Origin: Deltaproteobacteria bacterium
GTDB taxonomy: Bacteria > Myxococcota > JACPTQ01
Direction: 5' to 3'
NCBI GenBank assembly: GCA_016192705.1
Contig: JACPTQ010000084.1
Location: forward strand, 1 to 42,841
Length of the DNA stretch: 42,841 nt
Each line of letters begins with the position of its first letter. Within the stretch, counting starts at the first letter, position 1. The translations under genes and the position numbers were made by a program. Below the pieces are notes generated by a model that was given only the letters and a program-made list of their open reading frames with translations, did no database searches and had not been told where the DNA came from. Below, piece after piece: positions 1 to 42,841 of this stretch.

Positions 1-280
1 ATTGGGCAAGCGAAGGCTCGCATATTCTGTGAGCAATCGTTGGCAAGCCTGTGGCTTGCCGGCGCGAACAGAATCGCGAGGGCGACGGAACGGAGCCCGC
101 AGCGCACCTTTGCGCAGGGGATGAGGTGCCGATGGGGCGTGAGATTGCCGTTCTCGTGATGTTTGATTCATTCTGTGCAAACTCACATTTCATGTCAGAC
201 CCGAGGACTTCTGCGAGCCGGAGCGAGCCCAAAACCGACCGCCCCACGCTGGTCTTGGCCGCTTAACCGGGGATCGGGGC
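1..280 (+). repeat. Dispersed TIR element, copy A (left end of window)
   Basis: This stretch matches segments at 18876-19075 (same strand) and 42646-42841 (opposite strand). Shared landmarks are the GGGCAAGCGAAGGCTCGC end at 4-21, the core GCAGGGGATGAGGTGCCGAT at 114-133, the GACCCGAGGACTTC block near 199-212, GCGAGCCGGAGCGAGCCCA, and an outer TTAACCGGGGATCGGGG motif at 263-279. Copy A differs from the other two by about 90 extra bases between the left end and the core. The 334 bases before the first gene hold no supported coding region. Confidence 0.8.
22..110. other. Insertion within repeat copy A with perfect hairpin
   Basis: These bases are absent from copies B and C. They contain a perfect 8-bp stem, GGCAAGCC at 42-49 and GGCTTGCC at 53-60, with a 3-base loop. 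The flanking pair ATTCTGT (24-30) and ACAGAAT (68-74) can extend the structure. No coding potential is recognised. Confidence 0.5.
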
Positions 281-334: not shown

Positions 335-1114
335 ATGCAAGCCGTTCTCTCCGTCGCAGGCCGCGTGGGCGGCGTCACGGTTCGTCTCGCCGAAGAGACC
401 GGTGGCCTTGTTCGCCTCCTTTGGCTCGTCGTGCGCAGTATGTTCCCGTGGCGCGTCGATGGCCCCGAGCTCGTCCGCAACCTGTTCAAGGTCGGCGTAC
501 GCCCGCTCATCATCGTCGTCCTCACGGCGCTCTTCGTGGGCGCGCTGATGGTCATCCAAACCGCGACTTACGTTCGCCAATTCGGCGCCTACGACCTCAT
601 CGGCTGGGGCGCGGCGTTCGCGACGTTTCGCGAGGTCGGCCCCATCCTCATCGGCCTCATGTTTTCGGGGCGCGTCGGCGCAAACAACACGGCCGAGCTC
701 GGCACCATGAAAGTCACCGAACAAATCGACGCGCTCCGAACGCTGTCGATCGACCCCATTCCTTACCTCGTGACGCCGCGATTTATCGCGATGGTCATCA
801 TGCTTTTCACGCTGACCGTGCTCGGCGACGTGATGGCGGTCTTGGGCGGCATGGTCACGGCGTACGGGCTCATCGATTTGTCGCCCGTTTCATTTTGGAA
901 CAGCCTAGCGGCCAACATTAAGGTCGCTGATTTCATGCAGGGCCTTTACAAAGCCGCGGTGTTCGGCGGCGTCATCGCGCTCGTCTCGTGCAAATTCGGG
1001 CTGTCGGTGACGGGCGGCGCACGGGGCGTCGGCCGCGCCGTCAACGATTCCGTGGTGACGACGGCTGTCGGCATTTTTGTGCTCGACTACGTCTTGACGT
1101 TTATCCTGTCATGA
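335..1114 (+). CDS. MlaE-family lipid ABC transporter permease (first copy)
   Basis: This is a permease of the MlaE/YrbE family, the inner-membrane channel of an Mla-type (MCE) phospholipid transporter. The roughly 259-residue protein has the family length. It has an N-terminal amphipathic segment and about five hydrophobic helices. The conserved loop is visible as ELGTMKVTEQIDALRTLSID followed by PIPYLVTPRF. The ATG at 335 is chosen; a GTG at 314 would add seven residues, and neither has a strong ribosome binding site. Its stop overlaps the next start as ATGA, which suggests translational coupling with a second, related permease. Gene symbol withheld because two paralogues are present. Confidence 0.9.
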   Translation: MQAVLSVAGRVGGVTVRLAEETGGLVRLLWLVVRSMFPWRVDGPELVRNLFKVGVRPLIIVVLTALFVGALMVIQTATYVRQFGAYDLIGWGAAFATFREVGPILIGLMFSGRVGANNTAELGTMKVTEQIDALRTLSIDPIPYLVTPRFIAMVIMLFTLTVLGDVMAVLGGMVTAYGLIDLSPVSFWNSLAANIKVADFMQGLYKAAVFGGVIALVSCKFGLSVTGGARGVGRAVNDSVVTTAVGIFVLDYVLTFILS

Positions 1115-1920
1115 TTCGCGCGGTCCAACAGCGCCTCCACTTCGCGGCGATTGTCCTCGGCACGAAAATCCTTTCGCTGCACCGCCACTTCGCGGCCTGC
1201 TTTGGGATCTTGCTCCGCACATGGTTTTTCACCATCAAGGGGCAATGGCGCATGAAAGAAATCTTTCGGCAAGCACACAACATCGGGAATCGCTCGGTTG
1301 TTTTCATCACGGCGGTTTTCAGCTTCCTCGGGATGATCCTCGTGCTTCAAACCGGCGAACAGGCACAGCGCATCATCGGCGACTTAAACCTCCTTGGCGC
1401 CACGATGATGCCGCTCATCGTCCGCGATTTCGGTCCGTCGATCTGCGGTCTCATGATCGCAACGCGCGTCGGCTCCGGCATCGCCGCTGAAATCGGTTCA
1501 ATGGTTGTGACCGACCAAGTCGACGCGCTCCGCATGTCGGCGGCCGATCCCGTCGACTACCTCGTCACGCCGCGCTTCATCGCAACGACGGTGATGATGG
1601 TCGCGCTTGCCGTCTTCGCCGTGCTCATCACGATGTCGGTCGGCGCGCTCACCGCGAAAACGAGTTTTGGCGTCCCCATCAACGTGTTTCTCGACACGAT
1701 GCTCGTGAAACCCTCGGACGTCGCAACCGGCGTCGCCAAGGCGATCGCTTACGGCATGGCGATCCCCGTTATCGCCGGGTATTGCGGTCTCGTGACGCGC
1801 GGCGGGTCGGAAGGCGTCGGGTGGGCCACAACGAACTCCGTCGTCGCGACGAGCTTCGCCGTCATCACGCTGAACCTCATCATCAGCGCGATCGCGTACC
1901 TCTTCACGGGTGGCGCATGA
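1111..1920 (+). CDS. MlaE-family lipid ABC transporter permease (second copy)
   Basis: This is a second MlaE/YrbE-type permease of about 269 residues, diverged from its upstream neighbour. It keeps the family core: EIGSMVVTDQVDALRMSAAD, then DYLVTPRFIATTVMM. The N-terminus has an amphipathic region before the first membrane helix. It overlaps the previous gene by four bases (ATGA at 1111-1114) and the ATPase gene the same way (1917-1920). E. coli has a single MlaE that forms a homodimer, so adjacent paralogues suggest a heterodimeric permease, as in the YrbEA/YrbEB pairs of mycobacterial mce operons. That assembly is inference. Confidence 0.9.
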   Translation: MIRAVQQRLHFAAIVLGTKILSLHRHFAACFGILLRTWFFTIKGQWRMKEIFRQAHNIGNRSVVFITAVFSFLGMILVLQTGEQAQRIIGDLNLLGATMMPLIVRDFGPSICGLMIATRVGSGIAAEIGSMVVTDQVDALRMSAADPVDYLVTPRFIATTVMMVALAVFAVLITMSVGALTAKTSFGVPINVFLDTMLVKPSDVATGVAKAIAYGMAIPVIAGYCGLVTRGGSEGVGWATTNSVVATSFAVITLNLIISAIAYLFTGGA

Positions 1921-16870: not shown

Positions 16871-18415
16871 TCAAACCTGAGGCCTCATGAGCGGAAACAA
16901 AATGACGTCGCGAATCGAATCAGAATTCGTGAGCAGCATCGCGAGCCGGTCGATCCCAACGCCTTCGCCGCCGGCCGGTGGCATGCCGATTTCAAGCGCC
17001 TCCAGAAAGTCTTCGTCGAGTTGATGCGCCTCGTCGTCGCCCGCCGCGCGCGCCGCCATCTGCCCTTCAAAGCGCCCGCGCTGGTCGATCGGGTCGTTCA
17101 GCTCGCTGAACGCGTTCGCCATCTCCATTCCCGCGACGTAAAGCTCGAAACGATCGACGAGCGGAAGCGAGGAAGTTCCATTGGCGAGCGTCGGATCGCT
17201 CTCCTTCTTTCGCGAGAGTGGCGACACATCGAGCGGGAAGTCGACAACGAACGTCGGCTGCACCAAGTGCGGCTCGCTCGCCCGTTCGAAAATTTCCATC
17301 AGCACCGCACCGTGCGTCGCGCCCGGCTTGACTTCGATCCCGCGCGCCTTCGCGGCTGCCTTCGCTTCGCCCGCATCGGCCCACACACTGTCCGGCAACT
17401 TCGCAAACTCCCGAATCCCCTCACGAATCGACAACCGCCGAAATGGCGGCTCGAGCCGTATCTCGTTCCCACGAAATGGCACCGTCGTCTTCCCCGCGAC
17501 TTTCGCAGCCAGCTCACCAAACATCTCCTCCGTGAGCGCGATGAGCAGCTCGTAGTTGGCGTACGCCCAATAAAACTCAAGCATCGTGAACTCGGGGTTG
17601 TGCTGTGTCGAAATCCCCTCGTTTCGAAAGTTGCGGTTGATCTCGTAGACCCGCTCGAAACCACCCACCAAGAGCCGCTTCAAATACAGCTCGGGCGCAA
17701 TGCGCATATAGAGGTCCATGTCGAGCGTGTTGTGATGCGTCACAAACGGCCGGGCCGCGGCGCCCCCCGCAAGCGGGTGCATCATCGGCGTCTCGACCTC
17801 CATGAATCCGCGCGCATCAAGGAAACGCCGCATCTCGCGCAGGAGAAGCGTCCGCTTGACAAACGTGTCGCGCACCGCGGGGTTCGCAATCAAATCGACG
17901 TAGCGCTTGCGGTAGCGCGTTTCGACGTCTGAAAGCCCGTGCCACTTTTCGGGGAGCGGCCGGAGCGCCTTCGTGAGCAAACGAAACTCGCGCGCCTCAA
18001 GCGTCAGCTCGTTTGTCTTGGTCCGAAACGCGGCCCCCTCGACGCCCACGATGTCGCCCATGTCGCAAAGCTGAAACGCGTCAAACACGTCGGCGCCGAC
18101 CACGTCCTTTTTCACGTAGACCTGAATCCGCCCCGACTGGTCTTGAATCGAAATGAACGCCGCCTTGCCGAACGACCGATTCGCGACGATTCGCCCCGCG
18201 ACACGGTATCGCCGCGGCGTCGCGCCGAGCGCCGCCCCATCCTGCTCGCCACAATCCCGATGCACATCGGCCGCATTATTCTGTGGACGAAAATCGTTCG
18301 GATACGGGTTGACCCCGCGGGCACGAAGCGCGTCCGCCTTTTGCCGGCGCACGACACGCAGCTTGTGCTCGTTTTCGATTTCGCTTCCAGCCTCGACCGC
18401 TTCCACGTCAACCAT
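16871..18415 (-). CDS. lysS: Lysyl-tRNA synthetase, class II
   Basis: This enzyme charges tRNA-Lys. The 514-residue protein has the anticodon-binding OB domain (YRVAGRIVANRSFGKAAFIS). The class II core follows, with motif 1 region FMEVETPMMHPLAGGAAARP, motif 2 YEINRNFRNEGISTQHNPEF and motif 3 GEGVGIDRLAMLLTNSDSIR, ending ILFPLMRP. ATG 18415 is chosen because GAGG precedes it and the sequence upstream is not conserved-looking. Twelve bases separate its stop from the lolC start, so it is likely the first gene of the envelope operon. Confidence 0.96.
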   Translation of the reverse strand: MVDVEAVEAGSEIENEHKLRVVRRQKADALRARGVNPYPNDFRPQNNAADVHRDCGEQDGAALGATPRRYRVAGRIVANRSFGKAAFISIQDQSGRIQVYVKKDVVGADVFDAFQLCDMGDIVGVEGAAFRTKTNELTLEAREFRLLTKALRPLPEKWHGLSDVETRYRKRYVDLIANPAVRDTFVKRTLLLREMRRFLDARGFMEVETPMMHPLAGGAAARPFVTHHNTLDMDLYMRIAPELYLKRLLVGGFERVYEINRNFRNEGISTQHNPEFTMLEFYWAYANYELLIALTEEMFGELAAKVAGKTTVPFRGNEIRLEPPFRRLSIREGIREFAKLPDSVWADAGEAKAAAKARGIEVKPGATHGAVLMEIFERASEPHLVQPTFVVDFPLDVSPLSRKKESDPTLANGTSSLPLVDRFELYVAGMEMANAFSELNDPIDQRGRFEGQMAARAAGDDEAHQLDEDFLEALEIGMPPAGGEGVGIDRLAMLLTNSDSIRDVILFPLMRPQV

Positions 18416-18475
18416 CAGAATCGCCTCAACCTCGGAAATAATCCGATCGCTTCGAGAATAGAAAAAGGTTTCGAA

Positions 18476-18504
18476 ACTTATCGGCGCTGGGCCGGCGCCG
18501 TCAA
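18476..18504 (-). promoter_or_regulatory. Possible promoter for lysS-lol-bam-lpx cluster
   Basis: On the minus strand, TTGACG (18504-18499) and ATAAGT (18481-18476) are separated by 17 bases. That matches sigma-70 spacing, about 60 bases upstream of the lysS ATG. The -35 hexamer lies just inside the edge of the composite repeat that starts at 18510. The spacer can form a short GGCGC hairpin. This is a motif match only. Confidence 0.35.
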
Positions 18505-18509
18505 GACGT

Positions 18510-19075
18510 GATGCTAATCCCCAATCCCCGGATAAGCGACGAATTCTCTGCAGCGCGTCGGGTCGGCAGGAGGCGGCGTCGGCGCGCCGACGTCCTCGGG
18601 TCTGAACGCAAACGAGCGCTCGAGCCACTGTTTTGTGGCGTGCGAAATCTCGGAGATTCCCAGCGGTATTGCGCTGCAGACCCTGCGGAGGCGCGCCGTT
18701 GCGGCACCCCTGCCAACCCGACGCAACTCCGGACGAACCGCTTACCCGGTACGCGTTCCTCGCCCTTGAGGGTGGTACGAAGAGTTCACCTGCCTGGCGT
18801 CGACCTGCGATCGATCAACCCCCAAGCCTTCTAACGGCCATACCCGGAAAACGGCGAACTTCTGAACCGCGGGCAGGGTCTGGGCAAGCGAAGGCTCGCG
18901 TCCGCAGGGGCTGAGGTGCCGACCGGGCATGGATTTTCCGCTGCCATCACGTTCTATTGATTCTGCATTTCTCGCATAACATCAGCCCCGAGGACGTCCG
19001 CGAGCCGGAGCGAACCCAGGCCCCGCCCGCCCCACTGAAGTCCTCTCCGTTATCCGGGGATTGGGAATGCTAATA
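18510..19075. repeat. Composite inverted-repeat region (diverged copy plus copy B)
   Basis: About 650 bases without a supported gene. The region is bounded by inverted repeats: GATGCTAATCCCCAATCCCC at 18510-18529 (continuing GGATAAG) and TTATCCGGGGATTGGGAATG at 19050-19069 (continuing CTAAT). Inside, the right part is repeat copy B. The left part contains GACGTCCTCGGGTCTGA near 18588-18604, the same internal block in opposite orientation, so a diverged, inverted copy probably fills the left side. A 71-codon minus-strand frame (18514-18726) is probably repeat-derived rather than a gene. Confidence 0.7.
18876..19024 (+). repeat. Dispersed TIR element, copy B core
   Basis: The 149-base core is bounded by GGGTCTGGGCAAGCGAAGGC and by the inverse-related GAGCCGGAGCGAACCCAGGC near its right end (through 19024). 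The 25-base ends of the element consensus match at about 20 positions when one is reverse-complemented. The interior CGTCCGCAGGGGCTGAGGTG matches copies A and C. Outside the core, CGTTATCCGGGGATTGGG is also shared with the other copies. Confidence 0.75.
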
Positions 19076-20488
19076 AGCGGTGGTTGCGAAAACCGAGTTG
19101 TATCCGGCGACCTCTTGAATCCAGACCACGACGCAGCCTCCATCGGGCAACGCGGCGAGGGCTGGCGACGACGCGGTGCCACCCCCGTCGTTAACTTGCA
19201 AGGGAACCGCTGGGGTTCCATTAAAGACCCGCGTCAAAAAAACGACATCTTTGGTTGAAATGAACTGCGTCCACGCGACCCAAAACGTCCGCGACGGCCC
19301 ATTCGGTGTTGTAGCCGCGACAATCGCCGGTTGACGCACACCCGCAACGTTGGCCGTAAACGGAATCGCGCCGACCCAAGAGGCCGACGTTGGTAAAAAG
19401 TTTCCCCAAAGTTGCGTTCGGCCATCCCCAAAGTTGTGCATCCAAACAACGAGCGTATTCCCCGCGTTGCTTTGCGCGACGCGGATATCTGTCAACGTGT
19501 CGGTGGGCGGGACATAAAACAGTTGCGCCGTATTAAAGTCGAAGCCCTGGCCCGGTACCCACGTGCTTGCCCGTACGTACTTTCCCGACTCACCAGGTTT
19601 TTGCGATCGCCAGACGGCGACGGGCGACGATTGGTTCTCGCCAACTGCGATGCGAACCTCCGGTGCGCCCGAATCCACCACGTTATCGAGCACCCGGACG
19701 TTAAAACCCCCGTCAACATAAAGCGCACCGCGAACCGTGTTGTCCGACGATTGCGTGACATAAAAGATCTCCTTGCTTGAATTAACCGCGACATCAAACG
19801 CGTAAATCACCTGTGCCAATTCAAAGCCGGTCGACGGACTCGCGGAGAAATCGTCGATCGCGCCATACTGCAAGAATAACCAGGAACCGCTCGCATACAC
19901 CAGCGCCGCGAACCCCGACGAGTCAACGCTCACCCGAACATCGTCGCTTGTGGATTCCACGAAGGGATCGCTAAACTGCCCGAAATAACCGCCATCAGCC
20001 AGATAAACAACGCTCCGAACCCGCCTTCCGCCGTCGACGGTAACCGGACCCGCGTTCGCGATGAGCGCGTTCCCGTACCGGTCACCGCCGAGACTGAATT
20101 TGAGACTCCCAGCGTCAAATCCGAAGGGAACGCGCGTGGGCGGCACCCATTGACCGGTCATCGCATCCCGTTGCGACATCCACTGGCTCACGCCGTCCAC
20201 GCCCGTCGTGGTCGACCAAACCGCGGTCGCATTCCCACCTTCGTGGGTCACAACAGCCGGATTCGACGACTCGACGAGCCCCATCAATAGAGTAGCGGGC
20301 GCAACGACAATGCTCGCGTCGGCGTCGTAAGTACCCCCGTCGGATGCGCCACCCCCGTCATTCGCGCCCCCTGCGACTGAACCCCCAGCGTCGATCGGCG
20401 GGAGCTTCCAGTACGTGCGGAGCCCACACCCATCGGGAATCACGGCGAGGCAAATGAAAAACACCCACGACAGCCGCATCAATCGCAC
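19070..20488 (-). CDS. Exported protein of unknown function, probable lipoprotein
   Basis: This 472-residue protein has a hydrophobic N-terminus followed by Cys21 (FFICLAVIPDGCGL). The lipobox is weak, so lipidation is uncertain. A low-complexity Gly/Asp/Ala linker follows (GGANDGGGASDGG). The remainder has repeated beta-rich segments such as NATAVWSTTT, PVAVWRSQ, TLVVWMHN and WVAWTQF, spaced like blades of a propeller-type repeat. Such 'VW' repeats with DAG/DGG runs are common in Myxococcota surface proteins. The TAG stop lies at the very edge of the inverted repeat (19070-19072). The function is unknown. Confidence 0.75.
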   Translation of the reverse strand: MRLMRLSWVFFICLAVIPDGCGLRTYWKLPPIDAGGSVAGGANDGGGASDGGTYDADASIVVAPATLLMGLVESSNPAVVTHEGGNATAVWSTTTGVDGVSQWMSQRDAMTGQWVPPTRVPFGFDAGSLKFSLGGDRYGNALIANAGPVTVDGGRRVRSVVYLADGGYFGQFSDPFVESTSDDVRVSVDSSGFAALVYASGSWLFLQYGAIDDFSASPSTGFELAQVIYAFDVAVNSSKEIFYVTQSSDNTVRGALYVDGGFNVRVLDNVVDSGAPEVRIAVGENQSSPVAVWRSQKPGESGKYVRASTWVPGQGFDFNTAQLFYVPPTDTLTDIRVAQSNAGNTLVVWMHNFGDGRTQLWGNFLPTSASWVGAIPFTANVAGVRQPAIVAATTPNGPSRTFWVAWTQFISTKDVVFLTRVFNGTPAVPLQVNDGGGTASSPALAALPDGGCVVVWIQEVAGYNSVFATTAY

Positions 20489-29432: not shown

Positions 29433-29482
29433 TTTCCGCCGCCATCTGCGCGAAAGCCAGTGGCTTGAGCGCGCGGCGGAAA
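29433..29482. repeat. Long hairpin between rsfS and rlmH
   Basis: TTTCCGCCGC (29433-29442) and GCGGCGGAAA (29473-29482) are perfect inverted arms. Inside, GCGC (29448-29451) and GCGC (29469-29472) pair, and AAGCCA and TGGCTT form a perfect central stem. The 50-base structure could be an attenuator, a processing site or a REP-like repeat. The rest of the 228-base gap shows no gene. Confidence 0.5.
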
Positions 29483-29533
29483 TGGGGAGCGCCTGTTTAC
29501 AGAGCGCGAACCCCACCCAATCGTCTGCGACCG

Positions 29534-32374: not shown

Positions 32375-32572
32375 GTTGCTGAAAAATGTCCAGATGCAAG
32401 GCAGGCGCGGAAAGCCGCGACCGGACGCTGTACTCAGATGTACGCGGAAGGGAGCGGCGACGCGCCAACGCCATCGAGGTGAAGCGACAGGTTTGCGAAG
32501 CCCATGGTCGTTTTGCTCGAATGATATTAGTGTCGCGGCAGTGCCGCGTAGATGGGCGTTTTTCAGCAACCT
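32347..32572. mobile_element. MITE-like element with GGTTGCTGAAAAA ends
   Basis: Perfect 14-base terminal inverted repeats AGGTTGCTGAAAAA (32373-32386) and TTTTTCAGCAACCT (32559-32572) enclose about 170 non-coding bases. A further partial end, AGATTGCTGAAAAAGTC (32348-32364), lies just outside on the left, as if two ends were stacked. Elements with this end sequence are widespread in Proteobacteria and related phyla (from memory). No transposase is encoded. Confidence 0.75.
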
Positions 32573-40979: not shown

Positions 40980-41855
40980 TCACCACGTCGACGCGCCGAG
41001 TCGAGCAGAGCAGCGTCGCGCCGCGCGATTGCCAGCCGCGAGGGCGTGACCGATGTCGTCGGGCGCGTCGACGGTCGACGCGAGAAAACCGGCCATGAAG
41101 GCGTCGCCGGCCCCCGTCGTGTCGACGGGTCGAATGCCACGCGTGGCTCGAAAGACGTCGCCCGCGTTTGACAGTGCGGTCGCGCCCGTCTTACCGAGCG
41201 TCACAACGACGACCGGCGCTCGCATCGAGAGTCCCGGCAACGTGACGAGTTCGTCGGCACTCACTTTCACGACATCCGCTAATTCAGCGAACTCATTCAC
41301 CGCATCGATCATCTCGCGCGCGCTCGACCAAAGGTGCGGCCGCAGGTTCGGGTCGAACGTCACACGCACGCCCGCTTTTTGCGCGACATGAATCGCTCGC
41401 TCCGTCGCATCCCGCGCAGTGCGCTCCATGAGAACGTTCGAGCCAAAATGAAAAACCTCCGCGCGCCCAATCAGGTCAAGGAATTGCGCGCCCCCCACAA
41501 AAAACCGATCCGCCGTCGGAGCGCCGTACCCCGCGAACGAACGCTCGCCGTGTTTGTCGATGGCGACAAACGAAAGCCCCGTCGGTCGCGCCGCATACCG
41601 CTCGCATGCACTCACGTCGACGCCAGCGCGTGCAAGCCGCGTCAGCAAGTATTCGCCAAACGCGTCGTCGCCGACCGCCCCCGCAAACGCCGCCCGCACG
41701 CCGAGACGCGCGAGCCCGTAAGCGACATTCGCCGGTGCGCCACCCAGCATCCGATGAAACGTCGGAGTCGACCCGAGCGCGCCGCGCCGCGCTGCGACCA
41801 AATCGACGAGCGCCTCGCCGTAGCAGACGACGCGTGGAGAATCTCGCTTCGTCAC
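40980..41855 (-). CDS. PfkB-family carbohydrate kinase
   Basis: This 291-residue ribokinase-fold enzyme begins VVCYGEALVDLV. It has FHRMLGGAPANVAYGLARLG (substrate-side Gly pair and Asn), VTFDPNLRPHLW and the PfkB signature 2, DTTGAGDAFMAGFLAS, with the catalytic Asp. The pattern FDPNxR is common in fructokinases and KDG kinases, but the sugar is uncertain. GTG 41855 overlaps the recO stop (GTGA); GTG 41864 is possible. Confidence 0.9.
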   Translation of the reverse strand: MTKRDSPRVVCYGEALVDLVAARRGALGSTPTFHRMLGGAPANVAYGLARLGVRAAFAGAVGDDAFGEYLLTRLARAGVDVSACERYAARPTGLSFVAIDKHGERSFAGYGAPTADRFFVGGAQFLDLIGRAEVFHFGSNVLMERTARDATERAIHVAQKAGVRVTFDPNLRPHLWSSAREMIDAVNEFAELADVVKVSADELVTLPGLSMRAPVVVVTLGKTGATALSNAGDVFRATRGIRPVDTTGAGDAFMAGFLASTVDAPDDIGHALAAGNRAARRCSARLGASTW

Positions 41856-42607
41856 TTCCAGCACGCGAGCTCAAGCTCCGCGACCGCAAACGCCCGCGCC
41901 TTCATGCGACGCGCGAGCTGATACTCGACAAAGGCACCGATGGCGTTTGTGACCGGCCGATACGCAGCCCGCGCAAGCACAACCGACGCCTCCTCGGCCG
42001 CGATCGCCGCGAGGCTTCGCACGGAACCCGGCGCCAAGCGATGCACCGCCGGCGTCTCGCACCGCTCGCAAACGACGCCCGCGCGCGACGGGTCGAACCC
42101 CACGACGTCAACGATGCCGCATCCAACGCACGCATCCACAACCGGCGAAAGCCCCGCCGCCCCGAGCGCACGCAACTCCGCGGCGACAATGAGATCGCCG
42201 CGCACATCCGCCGTCGCACATCGATCAAGCGCCCAGCCCGCCGCACGATAGAGATCGCTGTTCGCCTCACGCTCGCGCCCGAGTTCCCTCACAAGTTCGG
42301 CCACGTACGTCGCGACTGCGATACGCCACAAGTCCCGCCGAATCCCAAGCCGCGCGGTGCGAACCTCGGCCTCGTACAAGAAGGCGAGCGGCGTTCCGCG
42401 CCGTTCACGATACCGCACTGAAACCGTCGAGAACGGTTCGAGCGCTCCCCCGAATCGCCGCAAACTCGCGCGCGCCGCCTTTGCAACCCCCGATAACCTC
42501 CCAACTTCTTCCGTCAAAAGGTGAACAATGCGATCCGTCTCGCCAACATCGATTCCGCCCAAAACAATCGACTCTGTCCACCGTGCGCCCTTTGCTTCCA
42601 TGCCCAT
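41852..42607 (-). CDS. recO: DNA repair protein RecO
   Basis: RecO loads RecA with RecR during recombinational repair. The 251-residue protein has the N-terminal OB fold (ESIVLGGIDVGETDRIVHLL) and the helical core (VATYVAELVRELG). A four-cysteine zinc site (CVGCGI and CERC) is like that of Deinococcus RecO. ATG 42607 is used; ATG 42601 would remove two residues. Only 38 bases separate its start from repeat copy C, so its promoter may lie in the repeat. Confidence 0.92.
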   Translation of the reverse strand: MGMEAKGARWTESIVLGGIDVGETDRIVHLLTEEVGRLSGVAKAARASLRRFGGALEPFSTVSVRYRERRGTPLAFLYEAEVRTARLGIRRDLWRIAVATYVAELVRELGREREANSDLYRAAGWALDRCATADVRGDLIVAAELRALGAAGLSPVVDACVGCGIVDVVGFDPSRAGVVCERCETPAVHRLAPGSVRSLAAIAAEEASVVLARAAYRPVTNAIGAFVEYQLARRMKARAFAVAELELACWK

Positions 42608-42645: not shown

Positions 42646-42841
42646 GGGGGTCATTCCCGGATAACGGGCAACATTTGCGTGGGGCGGGCGGGGTCTGGGC
42701 TCGCGTCGGCTCGCGGAAGTCCTCGGGTCTGACATTAGATGTGAGTCTGTACGAAAGAAATCAAACATCATGAGAACGGCAATTCCACGCCCCATCGGCA
42801 CCTCATCCCCTGCGGACGCGAGCCTTCGCTTGCCCAGACCC
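42646..42841 (-). repeat. Dispersed TIR element, copy C (right end of window)
   Basis: This is the reverse-complement copy of the element. GGGTCTGGGCTCGCGTCGGC (42691-42710) is one end, and CTTCGCTTGCCCAGACCC at the last bases of the window is the other. The outer motif TCATTCCCGGATAACGGGC (42651-42669) corresponds to that beside copies A and B. The window stops exactly at the terminal repeat. No gene is seen in 42608-42841. Confidence 0.8.

Follow-up and report, generated by a model that had tools for sequence, protein, structure and literature searches.

A family of GC-rich, non-coding MITEs of about 550 bp lying beside predicted promoters in a Myxococcota genome

What kind of element recurs beside operons in this DNA, and how did it come to be placed there? 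The window analysed here is an entire contig (G000:C80) of 42,841 nucleotides, which belongs to an assembly of 5.21 Mb in 88 contigs. According to the original prediction, it contains three copies (A, B, and C) of a dispersed 150-bp element, exemplified by 18876-19024, with 25-bp terminal inverted repeats (TIRs), resembling either a MITE or a REP/BIME-type element. An all-vs-all BLASTN comparison within the window confirmed that the three copies share sequence far above chance: the level of identity is 78% over 189 bp between A and C (E 7e-37), 73% over 168 bp between A and B (E 1e-15), and 84% over 163 bp between B and C (E 7e-43).

The shared stretch is real; however, it is not the whole unit. 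When the copies were aligned together with their flanks, the similarity ran about 360 bp further to the left, to a second, inverted TTATCCGGGGAT. This motif is exact in copy A and has one mismatch each in copies B and C. It had been regarded as a conserved outer motif and is indeed found at all three copies, but it lies within the true TIR. The complete unit is about 550 bp long, and 18876-19024 is its right internal hairpin; the inverted arms of about 25 nt noted there exist, but they form the stem of this hairpin and not the ends of the element. The parts of copy A are as follows.

18519..19066, plus strand: copy A, a complete MITE of 548 bp (HMM match, model positions 2-550 of 551)
18511..18518, unstranded: left target-site duplication (TSD), ATGCTAAT (sequence)
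18519..18535, plus strand: left TIR, CCCCAATCCCCGGATAA (inverted-repeat search)
18555..18724, plus strand: left subterminal hairpin, arms ~18555-18605 and 18677-18724 (inverted repeats, fold)
18876..19024, plus strand: right subterminal hairpin, the earlier "150-bp element" (inverted repeats, fold, HMM self-match)
19050..19066, minus strand: right TIR, TTATCCGGGGATTGGGA (inverted-repeat search)
19067..19074, unstranded: right TSD, ATGCTAAT (sequence)

The two 8-bp TSDs of copy A match exactly. Copy A has lysS (16871-18415, minus strand) on one side and the gene 19070-20479 (minus strand) on the other; the right TSD spans the stop codon of the latter (19070-19072). The inverted-repeat pair at the ends of the copy (18517-18535 and 19050-19068) is 95% complementary, and the TIR is about 17-20 bp in length. 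A full-length partner with 89% identity is found elsewhere in the genome (G000:C3:24727-25275). The right hairpin of copy A is inversely homologous to its left hairpin, and the whole MITE, when reverse-complemented, still matches the HMM of its family (E 4.5e-25 for copy A, down to 1.7e-28 for others). The element is an imperfect inverted repeat, in which each half makes one hairpin and the TIRs close the whole. Across the family, conservation is 0.95-1.0 in some hairpin arms vs 0.66-0.8 in some loops, and both hairpins belong to what is conserved in the MITE.

The other two copies of the window are incomplete, since a break in the assembly falls within each of them. Generally, 64 of the 137 sampled contig ends are within 200 bp of a MITE copy. 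The outermost ~5 nt of copy C are degenerate.

1..279, plus strand: copy B, right part of the element, the rest cut by the contig start (HMM model 385-550 at 112-278)
23..113, minus strand: nested M2 repeat of ~90 bp inside copy B (sequence compared with inserts of other copies)
335-1114, plus strand: mlaE, downstream of copy B
41852-42607, minus strand: recO, downstream of copy C
~42648..42841, minus strand: copy C, right part of the element, the rest cut by the contig end (HMM model 359-546 at 42841-42653)

An absence of further copies, named with the prediction as its refutation, can be dismissed, as they are numerous. A whole-genome BLAST search with the stretch first noted revealed 40 strong copies, and an HMM built from 23 copies (model length 551) detected 161 in 2.62 Mb, that is, in the 50% of the genome that was sampled partly around TIR matches and contig ends. 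These 161 copies occupy 62.6 kb, and 72 of them have both termini. The most frequent, canonical size is 545-553 bp. Both TIRs and the TSDs are still present in internally deleted forms of 129-500 bp and in enlarged forms of 630-890 bp (the largest being 889 bp). At three loci (C74, C14, and C10), the deletion has the same junction (model 183/387), yet each locus has its own perfect TSD; therefore, the shortened form itself was mobile. The level of identity between nearest neighbours is 94% (median, over at least 150 bp) and reaches 99%, whereas the mean pairwise identity of the canonical copies is 81%, which points to several amplification rounds, some of them fairly recent.

The enlarged MITEs contain a nested second repeat family, M2, with inserts of 90-165 bp, whose insertion sites mirror each other (model ~171 forward and ~385 reversed). 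M2 is a dispersed palindromic family of ~75-90 bp with the core GGCAAGCC-xxx-GGCTTGCC. Of its 104 matches in the sampled half, 55 lie within a MITE or adjoin one, at these two mirror-image hot spots. In the window, it is located at 29443-29517, at 23-113 within copy B, and, as a partial copy, at 32510-32551. The free-standing M2 copies have no promoter association.

The flanks of the MITEs bear the traces of insertion. Among the 71 complete copies whose flanks were readable, the 8-bp sequences on the two sides match at seven or more of eight positions in 55 and perfectly in 39, while re-paired flanks are expected to give 0.67 and 0.04 copies, respectively. TIRs (CCCYGATYCCCGGWTAAC/G...) are paired at the two ends, and the TIR pattern has 143 genomic matches, while its reversed control has none. 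As for coding potential, no consistent reading frame is present in the MITE: the longest frames are scattered among all six and resemble those of shuffled sequences, and the internal ORF 18508-18834 has no Pfam match. A coding element was rejected on these grounds, and the element encodes no transposase, as had been stated from the sequence of the window. With TIRs at both ends, a fixed 8-bp TSD, a short length, neither a transposase nor a conserved ORF, and a high number of dispersed, mostly intergenic copies, the family corresponds to the working definition of a MITE, in agreement with one of the two readings originally offered. Thus, it is a family of GC-rich, non-coding MITEs of ~550 bp, almost certainly a non-autonomous DNA transposon moved by 8-bp staggered insertion. 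Its mobility is well supported.

A TSD of about 8 bp is characteristic of IS66, IS256, ISL3, IS1595, and some IS4, IS5, and ISAs1 elements. The MITE shares this TSD length with them; however, their tested transposase domains are absent from the genome, and we recognise no match between its TIR and the TIRs of these families. The genome-wide search covered the IS4/5-type, IS66, IS256, IS1380, Y1, ISL3, IS1595, and rve transposase domains (PF01609, PF03050, PF00872, PF13701, PF01797, PF01610, PF12762, and PF00665) and revealed none of them, while control domains gave matches in the same search. In the sampled half, no TIR/TSD pair 0.9-7 kb apart was found that would indicate a longer element with the MITE ends. 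No autonomous relative, the search for which was suggested along with the prediction, was found among these domains genome-wide or as a TIR/TSD pair in the sampled half. A multi-copy IS may be absent from a short-read assembly or may be located in the other half of the genome; it may also have disappeared, or it may belong to a type outside these eight families.

A search for a multi-copy IS at other contig ends found only repeats unrelated to the MITE TIRs. One degenerate group of ~12 copies, with 75-82% identity along as much as 600 bp and with CGGGTGATCGGGTGACA-type stretches shared by some, is found at the contig ends C55_L, C85_L, C49_L, C76_R, C23_L, and C34_L (loci L083, L112, L078, L176, L056, and L069). 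These are perhaps relics of an old IS, whose TIR is unrelated to that of the MITE. The contig ends C87_L, C55_L, C52_R, and C51_R match diverged sequences at as many as several hundred places, most of them in called genes; these sequences are large repetitive-protein families, which also break the assembly.

No relatives of any meaningful length were revealed in the collections searched. The nearest comparison genomes share only the phylum with the host. The 58 nearest genomes and then 195 genomes of the phylum, including its own, were searched, and no full-length MITE relative was found in the 194 others. An internal 26-mer of the MITE has no matches in GTDB contigs, a TIR 20-mer has two single-site matches there, apparently unrelated, and plasmids, phages, and viral contigs gave no MITE matches. 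That the element was not recognised as a named family holds for each of these collections. A single, isolated 29-bp match (97%, MITE model 486-514) was observed in a 9.2-Mb genome of the same phylum (L182, G161:C10:4684-4712) and is probably due to chance.

The position of the MITEs relative to genes was determined by calling genes from codon likelihoods, which gave 1944 genes (85.6% coding); the lysS, mlaE, and recO calls agree with family matches. The 70 classified complete copies, all with a neighbouring gene on each side, comprise 38 in divergent, 28 in codirectional, and four in convergent gaps; none is inside a gene. Divergent gaps contain 54% of the copies vs 20% of the background intergenic bases (p 3e-10), and the divergent gaps that bear an element had, before insertion, a median length of 113 bp vs 159 bp in the background. 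The location beside operon 5′ ends, proposed for three copies, proved to be general, since 106 of the 142 gene ends flanking complete copies are 5′ ends. The distance from the MITE to the downstream start codons is 40-120 bp.

A similar regularity concerns promoters, which were taken as the best sigma70-like prediction under an E. coli-type consensus, upstream of gene starts that are also predicted. The predicted −10 box is 25-39 bp outside the edge of the MITE in 65 of 119 flanks with a gene starting beyond them, vs 23% in a null with matched start-codon distances (p 2e-13), and the predicted −35 box begins at most 15 bp from the edge, also in 65 of 119. One-ended copies, analysed separately, have the same −10 peak (28/48). 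The base composition outward from the edge, which uses no motif, includes an AT-rich TSD, a GC-rich stretch at 10-28 bp, and an AT-rich stretch at 30-45 bp, as would be expected of a promoter starting at the MITE edge. Where a promoter was called on both sides of a divergent gap, both −35 boxes are within 20 bp of the edges in only seven of 16 gaps, although at least one is in 15 of 16. Uniform insertion into promoter-free intergenic DNA would place 9% (codirectional) and 21% (divergent) of the copies within 15 bp of a −35 box, while the corresponding counts, from a small set, are 7/10 and 13/15 (20/25 together). All three copies of the window fit this placement. TTGCAA is located 6 bp from the edge of copy C, ahead of recO, and TTCATC is located 15 bp from the edge of copy B, ahead of mlaE; both are predictions, as is the following feature at copy A.

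18475..18504, minus strand: predicted lysS promoter, −35 TTGACG 14 bp outside the copy A edge, then a −10-like hexamer (consensus match only)

We are highly confident that the position of the MITEs relative to promoters is non-random, because the separate set of one-ended copies and the motif-free profile agree. The M2 repeats are placed differently, with 7/38 vs 38/70 in divergent gaps (p 4e-4); the comparison of promoter distances between the two families is marginal (p 0.048). In control genes genome-wide, the predicted −10 boxes peak ~15 bp upstream of start codons, which suggests many leaderless or near-leaderless transcripts.

The best explanation, and a likely one, is a ~550-bp MITE family inserted preferentially upstream of promoters by a transposase supplied in trans. 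This enzyme, now lost, unassembled, or unrecognised, would have bound the TIRs and moved the MITE. Its preferred target would be AT-rich, probably underwound DNA just upstream of active promoters, and the insertion point would correspond to the position of the UP element, at about −45 to −55. The native promoter would then be left intact outside the MITE. The copies themselves lie in either orientation, often between two divergent promoters. As the mechanism, we would favour attraction of the transposase by DNA that is bent, AT-rich, and under negative supercoiling directly ahead of the −35 boxes, the supercoiling being supplied by divergent promoters, as general knowledge of transcription would suggest. 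A role of the hairpins in transpososome assembly would be a guess only. A stronger form is conceivable, and we put it forward tentatively: a promoter-selecting transposon with a near-fixed site just upstream of the −35 box (UP element/alpha-CTD), a preference for sites between divergent promoters, and a transposase outside the eight families. If so, it would be a bacterial analogue of the retrotransposons that insert harmlessly upstream of host promoters.

The same MITE could also have inserted roughly at random, with selection removing the insertions in genes, promoters, and leaders. This would explain why no copies are found in genes and why the edges respect the predicted promoters, and the age of many copies (mean pairwise identity of canonical copies 81%) has given selection time to act. 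Placement alone cannot separate targeting from the selective loss of other insertions. However, random insertion followed by purifying selection should favour long gaps, whereas the occupied divergent gaps are shorter than the background; the small set of copies near −35 boxes exceeds the uniform expectation at both types of gap; and M2 is tolerated at other places in the same genome. Given the short gaps, the narrow span between −35 boxes (20/25 vs 9-21%), and the different placement of M2, we consider selective retention rather unlikely, and the cause of the placement is, on balance, probably targeting. A domesticated regulatory element, kept by the host because its TIRs or hairpins would tune the promoters beside it or insulate them, would account for the tight promoter spacing, the conserved hairpin blocks, and the stable predicted fold. 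It is nevertheless improbable: in codirectional gaps, neither orientation is preferred (13 copies point the same way as the genes and 15 the opposite way), the copies range from 129 to 889 bp and differ in content with no interior shared by all, and the conserved blocks may equally be explained as transposase-binding sites.

Other readings were rejected. In a structured non-coding RNA gene family, the strong fold of copy A (z −9.0 as RNA and −4.8 as DNA, against shuffles) would be expected; however, Rfam gave no match at the gathering threshold and only far-below-threshold miRNA matches at a permissive one, two or more compensatory changes were found in 8 of 109 predicted pairs vs 1-4 in slid controls, and the TSDs indicate insertion, so this reading is scarcely credible. 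Since covariation is weak, a shape is claimed for the MITE, and not a selected RNA structure. REP/BIME sequences are 20-40-bp palindromes without an 8-bp TSD. The family resembles a REP/BIME palindrome moved by a RAYT/Y1 transposase in its strong hairpins, extragenic location, and high copy number, but it has true TIRs, 8-bp TSDs, and a ~550-bp unit, the Y1_Tnp domain (PF01797) has no match in the genome, and the copies are enriched at 5′ ends and in divergent regions and, if anything, depleted from convergent (3′-3′) gaps. This half of the original prediction, a very improbable reading, was abandoned on account of the TSDs and the absent Y1 transposase. The Correia elements of Neisseria are located predominantly directly upstream of genes and carry their own promoters (PMC10969869). 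The present family is similarly located, 40-120 bp upstream of start codons, and might, like some Correia elements, drive the genes beside it from outward promoters of its own; however, the predicted −10/−35 pairs are mostly beyond the edges, with few best matches having the −10 box inside, and element-borne promoters are thus unsupported and very improbable. The family also differs from Correia elements in its length of ~550 bp and its 8-bp TSD. The target of Correia elements is TA.

The MITE family inserted upstream of promoters can be compared with other prokaryotic MITEs, such as Chunjie, MITEAba12, QMITE2, and BrickBuilt (PMC10969869). Like these, it is short and non-coding, with TIRs and TSDs, a high copy number, an intergenic location, size variants, and stable predicted stem-loops. 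MITEs are typically AT-rich and intergenic, and QMITE2 has a mostly 3′ location (PMC10969869). Unlike typical MITEs, the present family is GC-rich; it also has a pair of subterminal hairpins, and its edges keep register with −35 boxes. A parent IS was not found, nor was any sequence similarity in the collections searched. The kind of element is known; we regard this family of MITEs as new and its placement as a variant. The open-access texts searched describe no MITE in register with promoters and no GC-rich family whose ends align with the edges of promoters that lie outside it.

The positions of MITEs are usually summarised as intergenic; here, many independent insertions keep the same register with the promoter, and wherever a promoter was called in the flank, an intact predicted −35/−10 pair begins ~15 bp or less from the edge in more than half of the cases. 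The family is therefore a natural experiment on promoter targeting vs promoter-sparing selection, and, for a lineage that is uncultivated, it readily marks where promoters are. The family is an orphan as well, with many copies, yet with the eight common transposase domains undetectable in the genome.

Downstream of copy B, two adjacent MlaE-type permease genes (335-1114 and 1111-1920, plus strand) have 70% DNA identity over 138 bp (652-789 vs 1446-1583). Apparently, this pair is a tandem duplication.
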